Positions 38,185 through 47,088 of a stretch of DNA of 64,000 bases are shown here, one piece after another (position 1 is the stretch's first letter; every line of letters starts with the position of its first letter). A program made the position numbers and the translations under genes. The DNA comes from Niastella populi (GTDB lineage: Bacteria > Bacteroidota > Bacteroidia > Chitinophagales > Chitinophagaceae): positions 62,001 through 126,000 of the forward strand of contig NZ_LWBP01000067.1 in assembly GCF_002078015.1 (NCBI RefSeq), given 5' to 3'. The notes beneath the pieces were generated by a model. That model had not been told where the DNA came from, did no database searches, and was given only the letters and a program-made list of their open reading frames with translations.

Positions 38185-38547
38185 CTAGCACCCGGCCATT
38201 CCCGCCCTCCTTTTTTGATACGCTTTAAGAATTTTCAATTCCTTTATGCCCCACTGTACCCAAACTATGGCAACCATGGGCAGCGCTATAAACGACATCA
38301 TATTATAAGCATATGCCTCTTCCCAGTCGAAATGGATGAGGTGCATGCAGCCACGGGTTAAGCCACAGGCAGGGCAATCGCGGCCAAGTAATAATTTTGA
38401 TAAACAAACCGATTCGCCGCCATCGAAAAAACCGGCAGGGAATAACAATAATAATATAGGTGTAACAATAATCAATACAAGTTTACCTATTGTATAGTAA
38501 TATCTGAAGTTCATCTTCCATATATTAAAAGGTTCCGATGCCGGCAT
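38185..38547 (-). CDS. DUF2752 membrane protein
   Basis: From the start at 38547 it is 120 residues; the frame extends to 38598 but that would overlap the TM2 gene by 26 bases. Two membrane helices flank a cysteine motif DCPACGLTRGCMHLIHFD typical of DUF2752 (CPxCGxTR). Function unknown. The close spacing (25 bases) to the TM2 gene upstream on the same strand makes a two-gene operon likely, and both domains are often found together in Bacteroidota. Confidence 0.9.
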   Translation of the reverse strand: MPASEPFNIWKMNFRYYYTIGKLVLIIVTPILLLLFPAGFFDGGESVCLSKLLLGRDCPACGLTRGCMHLIHFDWEEAYAYNMMSFIALPMVAIVWVQWGIKELKILKAYQKRRAGMAGC

Positions 38548-38572
38548 CGAAACCTCCTGATCATTTAAAAGT

Positions 38573-39067
38573 TTAGAAAGTAACGTCGTAATCGGCATCC
38601 TTAGGCTTCAGATCGCCCAACAGAATACGAACAAAATCGATCAATGCCCAAATACCGCAACCGCCTAAAGTGAAGATCTGAACAATGCCCTGCCATGTAT
38701 ATCCTAAATAAAAACGATGAATACCAATACCGCCTAAAAAGAAACAAAGAATGGCGGCAACAATTTGCGACTTCTCACCAGCAGCAGCGGGGTTGGCAAT
38801 AGTTCTGGATGCGATCTTTTTGCCGAAGACCTTCAATGCAACCTTTTCTTTAAAGCTTAATTTGCTTCCTTTAAGATCTTCTGCAATTCCTTTCAATTCT
38901 TTGTACGATACCTTACCATCAGCAGCAGCAGCATTATATGCCTGTGTTGCCTGTTGCATTTTTGTTGGCGCTTCTGACGTGTTGCCGGCGGGTATGGCAG
39001 CTGAAAATAGTACAAAGGAAATTGAGAGCACAGCAAGAACTGTGAATGTTCTTAAAACTTTCTTCAT
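38573..39067 (-). CDS. TM2-domain membrane protein with signal-like N-terminus
   Basis: 164 residues from ATG 39067 (MKKVLRTFTVLAVLSISFVLF); an upstream TTG would give seven more. A helical middle (TKMQQATQAYNAAAADGKVSYKELKGIAEDLKGSKLS) is followed by a TM2 domain: two membrane helices joined by the family motif GGIGIHRFYLGYTWQGIVQIFTLGGCGIWALIDFVRIL, here at about 115-150. TM2 proteins are widespread with no settled role. Confidence 0.9.
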   Translation of the reverse strand: MKKVLRTFTVLAVLSISFVLFSAAIPAGNTSEAPTKMQQATQAYNAAAADGKVSYKELKGIAEDLKGSKLSFKEKVALKVFGKKIASRTIANPAAAGEKSQIVAAILCFFLGGIGIHRFYLGYTWQGIVQIFTLGGCGIWALIDFVRILLGDLKPKDADYDVTF

Positions 39068-39477
39068 GATTAACTGAGTTTTCAACAAAGTAAATCCTGA
39101 ATAAGGTCATAGAAGATGGCAAGCGTTATGAATTGCGCATTTTGCTGATTGAAGTGACGAAGCAGATAGAAGAAGGAAGGTAACTACAATGCATTTTACC
39201 CACAAACCATCATAGTAAAATAGAGCAAAGTATAAGATAACAATGCATCATGCATACACACGTATATGCGTGTGGTCATAAAGTTGCTGTTTTAACAACT
39301 ATAGTTTATTATGTACGCATAACGCTTATCTTGAGGTATTATTGAGAATGATCAAATAAAAAAAATTATAATTATCTGCACAATAATAAAGTATTGCACA
39401 TTACTTTTATTTTAAATTTTTGACATTACTTTTGAGCCCGTTAAAAATCACTATTACACCTGGTAAAAACTAAAACA
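39068..39477. other. AT-rich divergent spacer with promoter box
   Basis: No gene. Contains a direct repeat of TTACTTTT (39400, 39426), the -7 box at 39427, and ATGCATACACACGTATATGCGTGTGGTCAT-type inverted words near 39250-39276 (ACACACGTATATGCGTGTG arms), which look like a possible operator or RNA stem. Confidence 0.5.
39427..39434 (+). promoter_or_regulatory. -7 box TACTTTTG for the barrel gene
   Basis: Perfect TAnnTTTG match 43 bases before the ATG at 39478. Confidence 0.5.
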
Positions 39478-40089: not shown

Positions 40090-40125
40090 TTTAACTATAA
40101 ACTTTGAACTAAGAACTATGAACTA
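40090..40125 (-). repeat. GAACT array ending in the pruA stop codon
   Basis: Units AAACT, TTGAACT, AAGAACT, ATGAACT, then A; the pruA stop (complement 40123-40125) uses the last two core bases. In the gene's direction this is AGTTC+NN. Confidence 0.9.
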
Positions 40126-41754
40126 TTCCTCCGCCATGAACGGATAACGATAATCAACAGGAGCGTTGAACGTTTCCTTAACAGTTCTTGCACTGAGCCA
40201 GCGATACAGGTTAAGGATAGAACCTGCTTTATCATTGGTGCCACTGGCGCGGGCGCCGCCAAAAGGTTGCTGCCCTACAACAGCGCCGGTAGGTTTATCA
40301 TTGATATAGAAATTACCAGCCGCATGACGCAGTTTAACCGTTGCGAGGCTGATGGCACTTCTGTCATGTGCAATGATAGAACCTGTGAGTGCATAAGGCG
40401 ATGTTTTATTCACCAGTTCGAGGGTGTCTTCAAACTTATCGGCATTATATACGTATACCGTCAACACGGGTCCAAAGATCTCTTCGCACATAGTAACATA
40501 CAACGGATCTTTTGCTTCTATAACAGTGGGCTGAATAAAATATCCTTCTGTTTTGTCGCATTTACCACCCGCCCAAAGCACCGCCTTGGGATCGTTCTTC
40601 GCATTCTGGATGTATGATTCAATTTTATCGAAGCTTTTTTCGTCGATAACGGCATTGATGAAGTTGGTGAAGTTCTCAACCGTGCCCATTGAAAAGCTTT
40701 CAATACCGGCGATGAGTTTTTTCTTCACTTCATCAGCCATATTCGATGGAATATAAGCGCGTGACGCTGCAGAACATTTCTGACCCTGAAATTCAAAAGC
40801 CCCGCGCAGTAAAGCGGTCACCAGCAGATCGGGATCTGCGCTCTTATGCGCCAGTACGAAATCCTTACCGCCTGTTTCGCCTACTATGCGCGGATATGAT
40901 TTGTATATGTTCATGTTCCTGCCAATGGTTTCCCACATTTTATTGAACACACCGGTTGAACCGGTAAAATGTACGCCGGCGAAATCGGGGTGGCTGAAAC
41001 ACACATCACCTAACGTAGGGCCATCAACGTAAATGAGGTTTATAACGCCATCGGGTAATCCGGCTTCTTTTAAAATGCGCATGAACATTTGCGCCGAGTA
41101 AACCTGCGTATGCGCAGGTTTCCAAACCACTACATTACCGCACATGGCTGCAGAGGTAGGCAGGTTACCGCCAATAGCGGTGAAGTTGAAAGGTGTTACC
41201 GCCAGTACGAAACCTTCGAGCGGACGATATTCCATGCGGTTATGCACACCTGCAGCGCTTACGGGCTGCTGACGATAGATCTCGCTCAGGAAATGCACAT
41301 TGAAGCGAAGGAAATCGATAAGCTCGCAGGCGCTGTCGATCTCGGCCTGGTAGGCGTTCTTGCTTTGGCCCAGCATGGTGGTGCCGTTCATGTACGGGCG
41401 GTATTTCGTAGCAATAAGGTCAGCCGCTTTAAGGAAGATATGCGCGCGGTTTTCCCAACTCATGGCGGCCCAGCTTTCACGGGCGGCCAGCGCAGCTTCG
41501 ATCGCCTGCTTTACATGTTTTTCCTCTCCGGTATGATAATGCCCCAGCACATGTTTTATTTCATGAGGCGGGTGCATCGTTTCCTTTTTGTTGGTGCGCA
41601 CTTCCAGTCCGCCAATATACATAGGCACATCAACCTGTTCCTTTTTTAAAAGGTCAAGTACTTCCTTGAGCCGCTTTTTTTCGGGCGAGCCGGGAGCATA
41701 TGATAAAACAGGCTCGTTGGCCGGCAACGGGTAGTGAAAATAGCCGAATTCCAT
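40123..41754 (-). CDS. pruA: L-glutamate gamma-semialdehyde (P5C) dehydrogenase
   Basis: 543 residues of the class 4 aldehyde dehydrogenase type that oxidises the semialdehyde of proline catabolism to glutamate with NAD. The NAD-binding region and catalytic site are clear: FTGSTGVFNKMW, ETGGKDFVLAHKSADPDLLV, then the nucleophile in GQKCSAASRAYIP. The longer frame reaches 41808, but the -7 box TACCTTCG (minus, 41778-41785) lies between, so translation from 41754 (MEFGYFHYPLP) is more likely. No proline dehydrogenase gene is in the window. Confidence 0.94.
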   Translation of the reverse strand: MEFGYFHYPLPANEPVLSYAPGSPEKKRLKEVLDLLKKEQVDVPMYIGGLEVRTNKKETMHPPHEIKHVLGHYHTGEEKHVKQAIEAALAARESWAAMSWENRAHIFLKAADLIATKYRPYMNGTTMLGQSKNAYQAEIDSACELIDFLRFNVHFLSEIYRQQPVSAAGVHNRMEYRPLEGFVLAVTPFNFTAIGGNLPTSAAMCGNVVVWKPAHTQVYSAQMFMRILKEAGLPDGVINLIYVDGPTLGDVCFSHPDFAGVHFTGSTGVFNKMWETIGRNMNIYKSYPRIVGETGGKDFVLAHKSADPDLLVTALLRGAFEFQGQKCSAASRAYIPSNMADEVKKKLIAGIESFSMGTVENFTNFINAVIDEKSFDKIESYIQNAKNDPKAVLWAGGKCDKTEGYFIQPTVIEAKDPLYVTMCEEIFGPVLTVYVYNADKFEDTLELVNKTSPYALTGSIIAHDRSAISLATVKLRHAAGNFYINDKPTGAVVGQQPFGGARASGTNDKAGSILNLYRWLSARTVKETFNAPVDYRYPFMAEE

Positions 41755-41777
41755 AATGTCATGTGTTTTTGAGGTTG

Positions 41778-41785
41778 CGAAGGTA
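41778..41785 (-). promoter_or_regulatory. -7-like box for pruA
   Basis: Minus strand TACCTTCG, one base from TAnnTTTG, 24 bases before the chosen start. Confidence 0.45.
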
Positions 41786-42016
41786 CTTAGCTGCTTTAGA
41801 ATTAACAAAATAAGGGCATCAACCGCAAAGTTCTGAAGAACATAATATTATAAATCTAATTTAACATGATGACCTGCTTTTATCCACAGGGCGTGCACAT
41901 AGCGATTTTTGTATAAGGCAATAAATTAAATTTGAACACATTTACCCTCAAAACGCAACCGTTAATCAGTGATCATTTCCGGAAAATCAAAACTAACCGA
42001 TAGCAACAGGTATCAT

Positions 42017-43222
42017 ATGCCTGATCTGTCGAACATTGTCGTTAAAGACATGCGCGAGTACGGCGTTGAACAGGCCGGTACTTACAAAGGTGGTATCGAA
42101 GCTTATAAAGGACTGCTGAACAAAGTGCGAAGCGGTTCCATCCTTTCTGAGCAGGATGCCATGAAACTACTGCCCAAAACCGAAGAAATAAAACTCCGCA
42201 TCCAGAAGCAAATAGACGGTTTACTGGAAAAATACTACGAGGTCAGGAGCAAGGTCGACGAGATCCATAACAGCCGCGACATAACCAAAGGGCTGGTACC
42301 GGCCAAACAGTCGGAGATAAATTTACTTAAGAATCAATTAGATGAAATAAATTCACCCCGCACACATAACCAACAATTACAATATAACAGCTTTAGCTGG
42401 GGTACTTTTTTATTTTTATTGTTTCTTTTAGTTGCACTTTCATTTTACTTGTTATACTTTTACATGAGTGTAGCAGATTTTGCGTTGAATGGTGTAGATC
42501 CAATTTCCCTTTTCCAGGAAGGAAGGCTAAACATACAATTGTTACCCAGCCTTCGAAGACTGGTCTATCTTATCATTAACTACCCCCCCCTGATCGTATT
42601 CCCCACTATTTTCTTTGCCCTGGGAACATCTATTCACCTGTTCTCAGAAAGAGGCATGAAATACAAGAAAGTTGTATGGGGATTGCTAAGCCTGGTTTTT
42701 ATCGGCGACGTATTGCTGGCTCTTCAGGTTCACACCGCTGTGAATGAGATTTTGATCAAGCTGAACCGGGATGAGTTCAAAACGCTGATAGTACCGGTGT
42801 TCGCAGATTCGCGATTTTACCTGGTATTGTTCCTTGGTTTTGGTGTATTTGCCATTTGGAGTTCTGTATATTACCTGATGCAGATGGAATGGGGCAAACG
42901 CAACCAGTTGAAACTACGTTACAAACGTATTCACCGTTTACAGGACGAGATCCTGCAACTGGAAGAAAAACGAATGTTACACGAAACCGAGCTACAACAA
43001 ATAACCCAGAGAGCGGAAGACCTTAGCAAGGAAAAAGAAAGACTTGTTCTGCCGGTTGATGCAATTGAGAAGAATATCAATTACTTCAGAGACGGCTGGA
43101 ACGGTTACCTGGCTACTTTATACGGGCGCGAGAAAGGCGAAGAACAGATCAAGCTTATTAACGAAAGGACAGACGCCTATATTAAAGAGCTGAAAGAATT
43201 CCAGGAGTCTTATTTCAAATAA
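42017..43222 (+). CDS. Unrecognised four-TM coiled-coil membrane protein (envelope operon gene 1)
   Basis: 401 residues from the start at 42017 (MPDLSNIVVKDMREYG); the frame opens at 41969. I know no family. Residues 1-120 are soluble and helical, with a coiled-coil stretch (IQKQIDGLLEKYYEVRSKVDE). Four membrane helices lie at about 129-152, 182-206, 218-238 and 267-288, with basic ends after TM4 (EWGKRNQLKLRYKRI), then a second coiled coil (about 305-350) and a tail. Layout suggests cytosolic N- and C-domains with a small extracytoplasmic loop. The next two genes follow by 30 and 14 bases and are lipoproteins. No signal peptide; MotA-, ZorA- and Tol-type motifs not seen. Confidence 0.75.
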   Translation: MPDLSNIVVKDMREYGVEQAGTYKGGIEAYKGLLNKVRSGSILSEQDAMKLLPKTEEIKLRIQKQIDGLLEKYYEVRSKVDEIHNSRDITKGLVPAKQSEINLLKNQLDEINSPRTHNQQLQYNSFSWGTFLFLLFLLVALSFYLLYFYMSVADFALNGVDPISLFQEGRLNIQLLPSLRRLVYLIINYPPLIVFPTIFFALGTSIHLFSERGMKYKKVVWGLLSLVFIGDVLLALQVHTAVNEILIKLNRDEFKTLIVPVFADSRFYLVLFLGFGVFAIWSSVYYLMQMEWGKRNQLKLRYKRIHRLQDEILQLEEKRMLHETELQQITQRAEDLSKEKERLVLPVDAIEKNINYFRDGWNGYLATLYGREKGEEQIKLINERTDAYIKELKEFQESYFK

Positions 43223-43252
43223 TTTTATAATAGGTTTCTTTATCCTTGAGTT

Positions 43253-44521
43253 ATGGCACGTTACCTCATAATCACTATCATTTGCGCCTGGGCTCTGGCG
43301 GGCTGCAATGAAATCGAAGAAGCAGTGAAGGATGCAAAAAAAGATGGATCCGCACCGCCTAAAGACAATTACATCGTTTTGCTTGATCTGAGCGACCGCA
43401 TCCTGTTCAACAACCAGCAACAGGTTCCGAAAGACATACAGGTCGTTCAATCGATCTACGCGGCATTCAAATCAAAACTGAATGCAAAAGATCCCACCAG
43501 GTTATATTTTACCGTTAAAGACAAGTTGAAGTTGATGGTAGCTCCGCAACGGACTACTTCCAGCGAAGTGTACGATATGGCCGGCAACCTGCGGCTTCAA
43601 CTGGCAGCGGCACAGCCCGAAGAAAAGGCGAAGCTGCTGGAAGAAACGGAAAAGAACTTCAACGCCTTCCTGCCGCAGATCTACAAAAAAGCAGTGATCA
43701 GCAACAACAGTACCTCTTATGCCGGCGCCGACATCTGGAAGTACTTTAATGAAGACCTTCAGGATGACCTCGAGAAGGACGCTCAAAACACCCTGTTCAT
43801 CATCACCGATGGTTATATGGATTTTGAAAGCCTGAACGGCCGCGCTTCACGCAACAACCGTTACACTTCCTGCACACAGATCATCAACAACCTTAAAAAA
43901 GCGCCCGACTGGAACAGCCGTTTCAAAGAAGGCGATTACGGTCTGCTGCCGGTGAACAAACGTTTCCCCAACTTAAAAGTGATCGTTCTTGAGTTGAACC
44001 CGAAAGACGACTGGACCGGAGAGTACAACCTGCTTACCACCATCTGGAGCAAATGGTTCAATGAAATGGGGATAAAATCGTACGCGTTCATCAAAGATGA
44101 CAACATCAATGAGATAAACGAGTCGATCGAAAAACTACTAAAGGTAAAACTACCATCATCTGCGAATATTACGTCCGTTAGCTGGACGCCGGTAACCGAA
44201 TCGGACCCGGAAATTACGAAGGCTGCGAAGAACAAGGCTACAATGGCTGCGCAAACATCTGATATTACACCAGTTACTGAAACAGTAAAAACAACCGCGC
44301 AAAAAAAGGAGAATAGTAATTCTTACAATTCGTACAGTTCTTACGCATATTCTGAGCCGGCAGCACCACAAAAAAAGAAAGAAAATGTTAAAGAAAGAGA
44401 ATATATTCGCGTGTCTGCCGTTAAAGGTCAGATAGATACTTCCAGTATCCATTCAAGAACCAATCCGAAAAAGCCAATTAGTAAACCAAAGGAGCAGGTC
44501 ACATTTGGTCCTGCTTATTAA
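43253..44521 (+). CDS. vWA-like lipoprotein (envelope operon gene 2)
   Basis: 422 residues. The lipobox ALAGC puts the lipid cysteine at residue 18. The chain has strand-helix features of a von Willebrand A-type fold: NYIVLLDLSDRI (about 39-50) resembles the first metal-binding strand with D-x-S-D in place of D-x-S-x-S, and NTLFIITDGYMDF (about 183-195) resembles the second, followed by VIVLELNPKDD. Not a full MIDAS, so metal binding is doubtful. The last 130 residues are a disordered, T/S/K-rich tail with SYNSYSSYAYS-like sequence. It is almost surely co-transcribed with its neighbours and anchored to the outer or inner membrane. Confidence 0.75.
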   Translation: MARYLIITIICAWALAGCNEIEEAVKDAKKDGSAPPKDNYIVLLDLSDRILFNNQQQVPKDIQVVQSIYAAFKSKLNAKDPTRLYFTVKDKLKLMVAPQRTTSSEVYDMAGNLRLQLAAAQPEEKAKLLEETEKNFNAFLPQIYKKAVISNNSTSYAGADIWKYFNEDLQDDLEKDAQNTLFIITDGYMDFESLNGRASRNNRYTSCTQIINNLKKAPDWNSRFKEGDYGLLPVNKRFPNLKVIVLELNPKDDWTGEYNLLTTIWSKWFNEMGIKSYAFIKDDNINEINESIEKLLKVKLPSSANITSVSWTPVTESDPEITKAAKNKATMAAQTSDITPVTETVKTTAQKKENSNSYNSYSSYAYSEPAAPQKKKENVKEREYIRVSAVKGQIDTSSIHSRTNPKKPISKPKEQVTFGPAY

Positions 44522-44535
44522 AAACCTTTACTCTT

Positions 44536-45447
44536 ATGCTTCGTAGCCTATTAATCATGGTTGTAGCTGGACTTACGCTGGGCATGGCTGTATCATGCGG
44601 CCCGAGCAAACAAGTCCAAAACCTGACGAAAACCACACAAGAAACCCTTGAGTTAGTCAAAAAAGAAGCTCAGCGTGCCATCGCGTTGACTGTTGAAAAA
44701 GTTAAGAATTATGAAGTAGATCCAGACATTGGTAAGGAGATCATCCGGAACCTGAAAGACGCCGAGAGAAAGATCGACACCCAGCTCGCCGTTGCGGTTC
44801 AACTGGAAAAAACCGGTACCAAAGAAGAGATACTTCAATTTGCTGAGCGCACAAACGTAATTATCCAAAGTGCGCTGACCGATCTGAAATCGTTGAATGA
44901 CCTTTATGACATCTCAACTTTCTCTTCGTTCGAAACAGCAACTTTCTTCCCTGCCGGTGGCTTTGGTATTCCTCCTGAAAAACAGGATGAGGCCAAAAAA
45001 TCAATCGAACCAATTGTACAACGGATCATCAAGTTCTTTGGTGACCACCCAAGACAAAGGTTCGTGGCGGTAATTGTATGTTATGGTTTCTCTGACGAAA
45101 CGCCGATCGCAAAGGAATCTCCTTTGTACTCTCCGCTGCTCGCCAAGATGAAAACCAACAACCCTACCCGCCAGGAGTTAAACGTTAAATTATCTGAACT
45201 TAGAGCAAAATCTATTGCCAACCTTCTGGTTGACCTTATCAAAATAAACGAAGGTCTTATTCCTAACCCCAAACTCATCAACTACGACATTAAGTGGATG
45301 GGTAAAGGTGAAGAGTTACCTTACCCGGACAGAGTAAAAGACTACAAGGCTGATGACAAACGTCGCCGCATGGTGTCTTTGATCTGGAACGTATTACCTG
45401 GTTCGTTATATGCACAAGGCCTCAGCAACGAAACTGCAATGAGGTAA
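44536..45447 (+). CDS. OmpA-like lipoprotein with helical stalk (envelope operon gene 3)
   Basis: 303 residues. The lipobox AVSC puts the lipid cysteine at residue 21. Residues 26-120 are a long helical region (VQNLTKTTQETLELVKKEAQRAI and LKDAERKIDTQLAVAVQLEKTG), suggesting a coiled stalk. The C-terminal half (about 160-290) resembles a degenerate OmpA-like peptidoglycan-binding domain: VIVCYGFSDE, LSELRAKSIANLLVDL, WMGKGEELPYPDRVKDYKADDKRRRMVSLI, where the conserved D and R spacing of the NxRVxI motif is recognisable. Tightly linked to the vWA-like gene. Confidence 0.75.
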   Translation: MLRSLLIMVVAGLTLGMAVSCGPSKQVQNLTKTTQETLELVKKEAQRAIALTVEKVKNYEVDPDIGKEIIRNLKDAERKIDTQLAVAVQLEKTGTKEEILQFAERTNVIIQSALTDLKSLNDLYDISTFSSFETATFFPAGGFGIPPEKQDEAKKSIEPIVQRIIKFFGDHPRQRFVAVIVCYGFSDETPIAKESPLYSPLLAKMKTNNPTRQELNVKLSELRAKSIANLLVDLIKINEGLIPNPKLINYDIKWMGKGEELPYPDRVKDYKADDKRRRMVSLIWNVLPGSLYAQGLSNETAMR

Positions 45448-45568: not shown

Positions 45569-45626
45569 TACTTCTGAGTTCTCAGTGATGAGTTTCTGGG
45601 TTCTCAGTACTGAGATACACGCAAGA

Positions 45627-45665
45627 AACACGCCTCCCGATAGCATCGGGAGGCGTGTTTTTTTG
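45627..45665 (+). terminator. Strong terminator of the three-gene operon
   Basis: A 15-bp perfect stem (AACACGCCTCCCGAT with ATCGGGAGGCGTGTT), AGC loop and a T-run of about seven. Confidence 0.93.
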
Positions 45666-45877: not shown

Positions 45878-46001
45878 AACCACAAACCACAAACCACAAA
45901 CCACAAACCATAAACCACAAACCATAAACCACAAACCACAAACCACAAACCACAAACCATAAACCATAAACCATAAACCATAAACCATAAACCATAAACT
46001 A
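45878..46001 (-). repeat. AAACC+AY heptamer array ending in the prfB stop codon
   Basis: Seventeen 7-bp units AAACC plus AC or AT; the last ends in the complement of the prfB stop (45999-46001). In the gene's direction it reads GGTTTRT. Confidence 0.94.
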
Positions 46002-47088
46002 CGTCGTTCCTGCTTCCATCATCAGATACGCTTTTATAAACCCATCCAGTTCACCATCCATTACCGGCTGCACATTACCCACTTCAAAATCGGTCCGGTG
46101 GTCCTTTATCATCTTATACGGATGGAACACATAACTGCGGATCTGGCTGCCCCACTCTATCTTCTTTTTCGATGCATTGGTGGCATTCTTCAAAGCTTCA
46201 CGGCGGCGCAACTCTTCTTCATAAAGGCGGCTCTTAAGCATTTGCATCGCCATTTCACGGTTTTCGCCCTGTGTACGCGCTTTCTGGCATTCCACCACAA
46301 TACCGCTAGGATGGTGCTTTAAACGCACGGCGGTTTCAACCTTGTTTACGTTCTGACCACCCTTACCACCGCTCCGGTAGAACTCCCATTCCAGGTCGGC
46401 CGGGTTTACCGCCACCTCGATGCTGTCATCGACCAACGGATATGCGAATACCGAGGCAAAGGAAGTATGCCGGCGGGCATTGCTGTCGAACGGTGAAATA
46501 CGAACCAGGCGGTGCACACCGCTTTCCGCTTTCAGAAAACCATAAGCGAAAGGCCCGTCGAACTGCAGGGTAGCACTTTTGATCCCAGCGCCATCACCTT
46601 CCTGCCAGTCTAGCTCGGTAACCTGCCAGCCCTGTTTTTCGCCATACATGCGGTACATACGCGCCAGCATTTCGGCCCAGTCCTGGCTTTCGGTTCCACC
46701 GGCGCCGCTGTTGATCTGCAGTACGCCCGGCAACTCATCTTCCGGCTGGTTAAGCGTGCTTTTGAATTCGGCCTCGTCAAGCTGCTGTAGGGCCTTTTCA
46801 TAGGCCTCCTTGGTTTCCTCTTCGCTGGCTTCGCCGGCTTTCCAGAATTCAAACAGCACAACGAAATCCTCTACGGCCGCGTTAGACTGGTCGTATAGTT
46901 TCATCCAGAATTCGTTAAGCTTAATACTTTTGAGTATTTCAGTGGCCCGTTTGTTATCGTCCCAAAAACCGGGCGAAAGGGATAGTTGTTTCTCTTCGTT
47001 TATTTTGTACTGACGGTTGTCGACGTCAAAGAAACCTCCTCAGTCCACCAAGGCGGGACCTCATATCGTTTATTTTTTCCTGTGTCAT
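45999..47088 (-). CDS. prfB: Peptide chain release factor 2, with programmed +1 frameshift
   Basis: RF2 recognises UAA and UGA stop codons. The zero frame begins at 47088 ([15 protein letters not shown]) and runs 20 residues to an in-frame TGA (47026-47028) within CTT TGA C, directly after AGG AGG TTT. A +1 slip at CTT continues as [10 protein letters not shown] and gives a 362-residue protein; the coding parts are complement(45999..47027) and (47029..47088). The GGQ motif ([14 protein letters not shown]) and SPF tripeptide (ISPFDS) confirm RF2. The purine-rich AGGAGG just upstream of the slip site is the classic stimulator. Its stop lies in an AAACC array. Confidence 0.96.
47026..47040 (-). 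promoter_or_regulatory. RF2 frameshift site: AGGAGG, CTT, TGA C
   Basis: On the minus strand AGGAGG (47035-47040), TTT, CTT (47029-47031) and TGA (47026-47028) followed by C, as in many bacteria where the level of RF2 controls its own synthesis. Confidence 0.95.

Follow-up and report, generated by a model that had tools for sequence, protein, structure and literature searches.

A conserved gene pair for a four-transmembrane coiled-coil protein and a predicted vWA-domain protein in Niastella populi and other Bacteroidota

Results

P1 and P2 form a conserved, unnamed pair

Three plus-strand open reading frames (ORFs), here called P1, P2 and P3, lie at 42017-43222, 43253-44521 and 44536-45447 of a 64,000-nucleotide stretch of the Niastella populi genome (contig NZ_LWBP01000067.1, positions 62,001 to 126,000; the window hereafter). 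A first-pass annotation had treated the three as a single envelope system. Our results showed that the conserved unit is the P1-P2 pair, an unnamed two-protein transmembrane module, and that P3 is a lineage-specific add-on outside it; the annotated trio is a real, unnamed module with misplaced boundaries. That this transmembrane module is reused by defence and stress systems is argued from guilt by association, which leaves a defence role plausible but unproved. The features of the locus are as follows, in window coordinates.

41969..43222, plus strand: P1, coiled coil, four transmembrane (TM) segments, coiled coil (ORF, hydropathy, AlphaFold2 (AF2) model, 65-row alignment)
42707..42709, plus strand: P1 Asp231, in the middle of TM3 (invariant in 65/65)
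43253..44521, plus strand: P2, predicted lipoprotein with a vWA domain and a disordered C-terminal tail (AF2, Foldseek / VIA-align, 69-row alignment)
43385..43399, plus strand: P2 loop 1, DLSDR, resembling a metal ion-dependent adhesion site (MIDAS) (D45, S47 and R49 invariant, 69/69)
43724..43738, plus strand: P2 loop 2, GADIW (G158, D160, I161 and W162 invariant, 69/69)
43805..43816, plus strand: P2 loop 3, TDGY (T185, D186, G187 and Y188 invariant, 69/69)
44536..45447, plus strand: P3, predicted OmpA-like lipoprotein with a helical stalk (PF00691 match, 12-row alignment, distribution)
45623..45663, plus strand: intrinsic-terminator-like hairpin, a 19-bp stem followed by a T run, between P3 and prfB

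P1 and P2 are adjacent on one strand, with P1 first and most gaps below 40 nt, in 110 of the 111 loci that have both genes, a count that includes some places fetched twice. In the remaining locus, on a Runella plasmid, the two are fused in a single 704-aa ORF, in which a fifth hydrophobic segment lies between the C-terminal P1 coil and the vWA domain. Because this extra segment places both P1 coils in the cytosol and the vWA domain outside, we strongly infer that the pair has cytosolic coils and an extracytoplasmic vWA domain. The P2 proteins of relatives carry a lipobox, a cleavable signal peptide (L057 and L077; L and G numbers are our handles for loci and genomes) or an N-terminal anchor (L176, L184). 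The pair was found in 21/395 Bacteroidota genomes (~5%; 17/395 among Bacteroidia) with a patchy distribution, and in a few contigs labelled Ignavibacteria, Chlorobi, Treponema, Acidobacteria or Elusimicrobiota, several of which are metagenome-assembled genomes and may be misbinned.

Second copies were also observed. Two loci (L176:9321-10375 and L021; genome G006, of the window's genus) hold a second, divergent P1-P2 with an apparently disrupted P2, which is spread over two ORFs that overlap in different frames. In genome G455, which also has the TerB type described below, a second P1-P2 (L164:6567-8726) lies near ADP-ribosylglycohydrolase-like and canonical-looking vWA genes.

Hydropathy of P1 revealed four hydrophobic segments, and its AF2 model (pLDDT 86) has helices across all four, flanked by long coiled coils, as the first-pass annotation had proposed. 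Residues G16, Y149, D231, F267, G274 and G360 (numbered on the 401-aa form) are invariant in 65/65 rows of alignment A3. Three P1 proteins have a PLD nuclease domain fused to the N-terminus (G760, G802 and G141; PF13091, E 8e-18 to 3e-25), two of them with the motif HHKFCLID, and Asp231 is kept also in those PLD-fused P1 proteins that were read. Foldseek returned no match to P1 at E<=0.001, and its VIA-align rows were generic coiled coils.

The lipobox of P2 reads LAGC. Its AF2 model, built from a 69-row alignment, has a confident vWA domain at residues ~35-300 (core pLDDT mostly >90) followed by a disordered tail. In Foldseek and VIA-align this model groups with vWA and I domains, with a best Z of 12.2 (root-mean-square deviation (rmsd) 3.2 over 173 residues) and with Z of 11-12 against Rpn10, integrin I, TFIIH and VWF A2 (rmsd ~3, 160-190 residues). 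Judged by its modelled structure, P2 belongs to the vWA domain superfamily (vWA / Rossmann-like fold), which bears out the vWA-like core and variant DxSD site that had been assigned to it. Conservation was counted over the 69 rows of alignment A4, in all of which D45, L46, S47, R49, D61, Y144, G158, D160, I161, W162, F165, N179, T185-Y188 and W268 are invariant. The canonical MIDAS pattern DxSxS...T...D was not found; P2 has DxSDR, in which the invariant R49 occupies the position of the second Ser, and TDG, and in loop 2 D160 is invariant with no aligned canonical MIDAS Thr assigned. The invariance across 69/69 rows therefore indicates a MIDAS-like site that is strongly constrained yet non-canonical. 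In two loci (L067, L071) a caspase domain is fused to the C-terminus of P2 (PF00656, E 3e-38).

The earlier view of the genes as an unrecognised envelope operon, covered by no named family or system, held up: neither P1 nor P2 matched a Pfam, NCBIfam, PADLOC or PHROG model above cut-off, and profile searches with both gave coiled-coil or chance matches only. PADLOC 2.0.0 produced no credible match for P1, P2 or P3, those of P1 being weak coiled-coil matches, and phmmer found no sequence relative of P2 or P3 in the PDB.

P1-P2 is repeatedly linked to CRISPR loci

CRISPR genes adjoin the pair in several arrangements. In L186 (genome G589) the order is helicase-152aa-P1-147aa-P2-cas1-CAPP-cas2, with a 4-bp overlap of P2 and cas1; in L022 it is Csx20-(WYL)-P1P2 fusion-CAPP-cas2-cas1, downstream of a cmr operon; and in L057 it is helicase-P1-P2-array-cas1-CAPP. 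Other loci have a helicase and a 40-repeat array (L077), an array ~200 bp upstream of P1 (L055, L056), Csx20 84 bp upstream of P1 (L167, G068), or Card1, a Csm6-type ring nuclease, RT-Cas1, Cas2 and Cas6 (L168, G194). Arrays were found in six P1-P2 loci vs 0/20 control regions, for which we used the contigs of 20 P1-P2 loci, and cas1 lies <=4 kb from P1-P2 in four genomes or records (L022, L057, L168, L186). By our own estimate, which assumes genomes of 3-5 Mb with about one cas1 in every two, chance would give ~0.2 such cases in ~110 loci; three of the four cases, which came originally from unselected P1-P2 searches, were chosen after CRISPR had been seen there. On the P2 tree, CRISPR linkage requires 4 changes by parsimony, at least 2 of them forced by well-supported branches, be they origins or losses. 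The window's genome has one cas1 (G000:C167:1163-2017), on another contig and unlinked to P1-P2-P3.

Previously, an operon of helicase, CAPP, Cas1 and Cas2 was described (PMC8211822), in a text from which the words membrane and vWA are absent and in which P1-P2 is unmentioned. CRISPR adaptation operons of this CAPP_B type enclose P1-P2 in L186 and L022 and lie near it in L057, where the genes beside the pair include cas1 and CAPP, a helicase (L057, L186) and cas2 (L186, L022). Unlike these operons, P1-P2 occurs mostly outside CRISPR.

The CRISPR cases allow either an adaptation license or a membrane effector. According to the latter explanation, P1 would be a channel through the membrane, or a disruptor of it, that opens on a cytosolic signal from CRISPR, TIR/caspase or TerB, and P2 its periplasmic gate or lid, so that an infected cell is killed or arrested (compare Cam1, Csx23 and Csx28). 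An effector role is suggested by the four TM helices with their invariant membrane Asp and by the nearness of P1-P2 to the cA4 ring nuclease Csx20 and to Card1, both of cA4 signalling (PMC12409355), and type III membrane effectors are already known (PMC11229360, PMC12669027). However, no nucleotide sensor, be it CARF, SAVED or another, was found in P1 or P2, three CRISPR loci have the pair within or next to the adaptation operon (cas1/CAPP), and the PLD-fused P1 proteins have a cytosolic effector domain already. We consider an effector role to be a serious but unlikely explanation.

TerB and other partners of P1-P2

The commonest partner is TerB, encoded directly upstream of P1 in ~35 loci (PF05099, E 9e-6), often with DUF6804 before it and with SNase, Excalibur, EEP-nuclease or HSDR_N-like genes nearby. 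On the P2 tree, the TerB label requires 4 changes. No TerB adjoins P1-P2-P3 at the window's locus, a search confined to that locus, the remaining genome not having been searched for TerB. Flavobacterial loci (L105:8771-10910, L173, L174) repeatedly have secreted-looking Excalibur/DUF4236 proteins and an EEP nuclease after TerB-P1-P2, and a conserved 352-aa HSDR_N-like (restriction-type) gene stands beside flavobacterial P1-P2 in L193:8160-9218 and 16 other matches. Like the Ter system with its TerB and its vWA protein TerY, these ~35 loci encode a TerB domain, a vWA protein and a membrane protein together; unlike in that system, the vWA domain of P2 is extracytoplasmic by our topology and non-canonical, P1 is of no known family, and the window copy is without an adjacent TerB.

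Caspase, TIR-FGE, DUF1508 and in part TerB genes lie upstream of P1-P2 in two Chitinophagaceae (L175, L111). The vWA-MoxR and EACC1-caspase conflict systems (PMC7159879) similarly combine vWA and caspase modules with swapped effectors, and the L175 caspase matches the EACC1-associated caspase type below cut-off. They differ from P1-P2 in that no MoxR or EACC1 was seen near the pair, whose vWA protein appears extracytoplasmic and is joined to a four-TM protein. Type I methylase genes were found near ~4/20 P1-P2 loci vs 0/20 controls. In the corresponding PADLOC test, 98 models matched among 150 genes around 20 loci, as compared with 4 models among 147 control genes; this model count is inflated, as one type I methylase matches many models, and the locus-level signal was used instead.

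The frequency of TerB raises the possibility that P1-P2 is a Ter-like module for envelope stress or cell-wall maintenance with no defence role, its island neighbourhoods being hotspots of gene gain. Vertical, genus-wide conservation in Niastella together with a lipoprotein of peptidoglycan-binding type, and the many loci with no defence neighbour, are consistent with such a module. Nevertheless, co-location in a hotspot is a less specific feature than the P2/cas1 coding overlap, the PLD and caspase fusions and the repeated CRISPR linkage. A pure maintenance role is thus, in our view, improbable but worth retaining.

P3 is a lineage-specific addition

P3 carries a lipobox, its match to the OmpA family is weak (PF00691, E 5e-4, short of the curated cut-off), and D187 and R223, at the peptidoglycan-binding positions of OmpA, are invariant in 12 homologues. 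From its sequence, P3 is a member of a broader family of OmpA-like lipoproteins with the predicted wall-binding Asp and Arg kept; the first-pass annotation had the lipoprotein and OmpA-like assignments right, whereas its description of the domain as degenerate does not agree with these invariant residues. P3 homologues unaccompanied by P1-P2 occur in unrelated contexts in six other genera of the Chitinophagaceae. Members of the window's own 5-row clade differ in their third gene, some having the OmpA lipoprotein and others a TPR protein, and in L089 P1-P2 is followed by a different OmpA lipoprotein. The trio was rejected as a conserved unit on this distribution, P1-P2 being the part that co-occurs broadly. 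The proteins in the place of P3 in L051:9216-10625 and L054:9230-10642 are secreted TPR proteins, possibly with a Ppx/actin-like fold when judged by eye.

An OmpA partner for a four-TM, coiled-coil protein invites comparison with proton-driven stators or Zorya-type motors, in which P1 would correspond to MotA/ZorA and P3 to MotB/ZorB. As in Zorya, a coiled-coil inner-membrane protein is encoded with a partner of peptidoglycan-binding type, the L089 lipoprotein resembles the wall-binding part of ZorB (E 6e-10), and one locus has the order P1-P2-238aa-ZorA-ZorB (L113). However, P1 matches no ZorA or MotA model (PADLOC gave no ZorA match, and hhalign of P1 to the L113 ZorA gave a probability of 2%) and, as noted, has no Foldseek match, so that a relation to MotA/ZorA was rejected; the annotation had itself stated that stator and Zorya motifs are not shared. 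Moreover, P3 is a lipoprotein with a lipobox in place of the MotB/ZorB TM segment and no PADLOC ZorB match, there is an extra vWA subunit, most relatives are without the OmpA partner, and Zorya, where present, has its own ZorA and ZorB. A motor is therefore very improbable. The ZorA of L113 (L113:2889-6602, labelled Elusimicrobiota) carries a fused N-terminal repeat region (780 aa), and its ZorB is 213 aa long.

The Niastella locus

Our reading of the locus confirmed the ORFs, their tight spacing (gaps of 30 and 14 bases) and the strong terminator after them that the first-pass annotation had reported. The locus is flanked by pruA (40123-41808, minus strand) before P1 and by the convergent prfB (45999-46904, minus strand) after P3. 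P1 probably starts at the GTG at 41969 (417 aa) instead of the ATG at 42017 (401 aa), because the N-terminus so encoded, MIISGK...PDLSN, is conserved in L019, which has an ATG start, and in L053. P1, P2 and P3 are all present in 9/9 other members of the genus at 88-98% protein identity, which excludes a chance origin; the three ORFs are real, intact and tightly spaced. The pruA/prfB context was identical in the long loci read from genus members. Elsewhere in the window, tandem TM2-domain-like and DUF2752-like proteins were recognised by eye at 38185-39088 (minus strand).

Discussion

We tentatively read P1-P2 as a sensor-transducer module. With the modified MIDAS-like pocket of its vWA domain, P2 would sense an envelope event, such as the entry of a phage or damage to the wall or membrane, and the helix bundle of P1, including the invariant membrane Asp, would relay the signal to the cytosolic coiled coil. 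This coil might then dock or activate whichever partner the lineage has attached: TerB, the PLD nuclease, the caspase/TIR operon or type III CRISPR machinery. The PLD-P1 fusion argues that the cytosolic end of P1 drives output, and the caspase-P2 fusion that certain outputs lie outside the cytoplasm. For Niastella, the partner so attached may be P3, which would likely connect the complex with both peptidoglycan and outer membrane.

Several observations weigh against this sensor-transducer reading. In Niastella, the copies belong to the genus core, keep a syntenic place between pruA and prfB and have no defence neighbours; the suggested association with defence islands is seen in the neighbourhoods of relatives, but not at the window's locus. 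A 22-row clade of Cytophagales and Bacteroidales has no recognised partner except the two caspase fusions, and the enrichment of restriction systems at P1-P2 loci, counted by locus, is only suggestive. Our searches of phage records and viral contigs turned up no P1-P2, and only one plasmid copy and the patchy distribution speak for mobility. The pair itself, the vWA fold, the invariant sites and the recurrent partners and fusions are established computationally; we can only infer the direction of signalling, the ligand and any defence or stress phenotype.

A bolder claim would be that P1-P2 represents a new class of transmembrane immune module, in which an extracytoplasmic vWA sensor is coupled to interchangeable cytosolic machinery, including that of CRISPR spacer acquisition, and phage perturbation of the envelope could license immunity. 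This we regard as doubtful. No vWA/four-TM membrane pair occurs in the passages that we searched on the Kaur vWA systems, in the type III effector survey or in the 2025 text on CRISPR classification, and P1-P2 is provisionally undescribed in the literature searched, which did not cover TerB surveys.

Should P1-P2 be a shared transmembrane sensor or effector, it would connect events at the envelope with several unrelated outputs in immunity or stress. TerB and CAPP operons would then gain a testable membrane partner, and family models and defence-finder tools could be directed at the pair.

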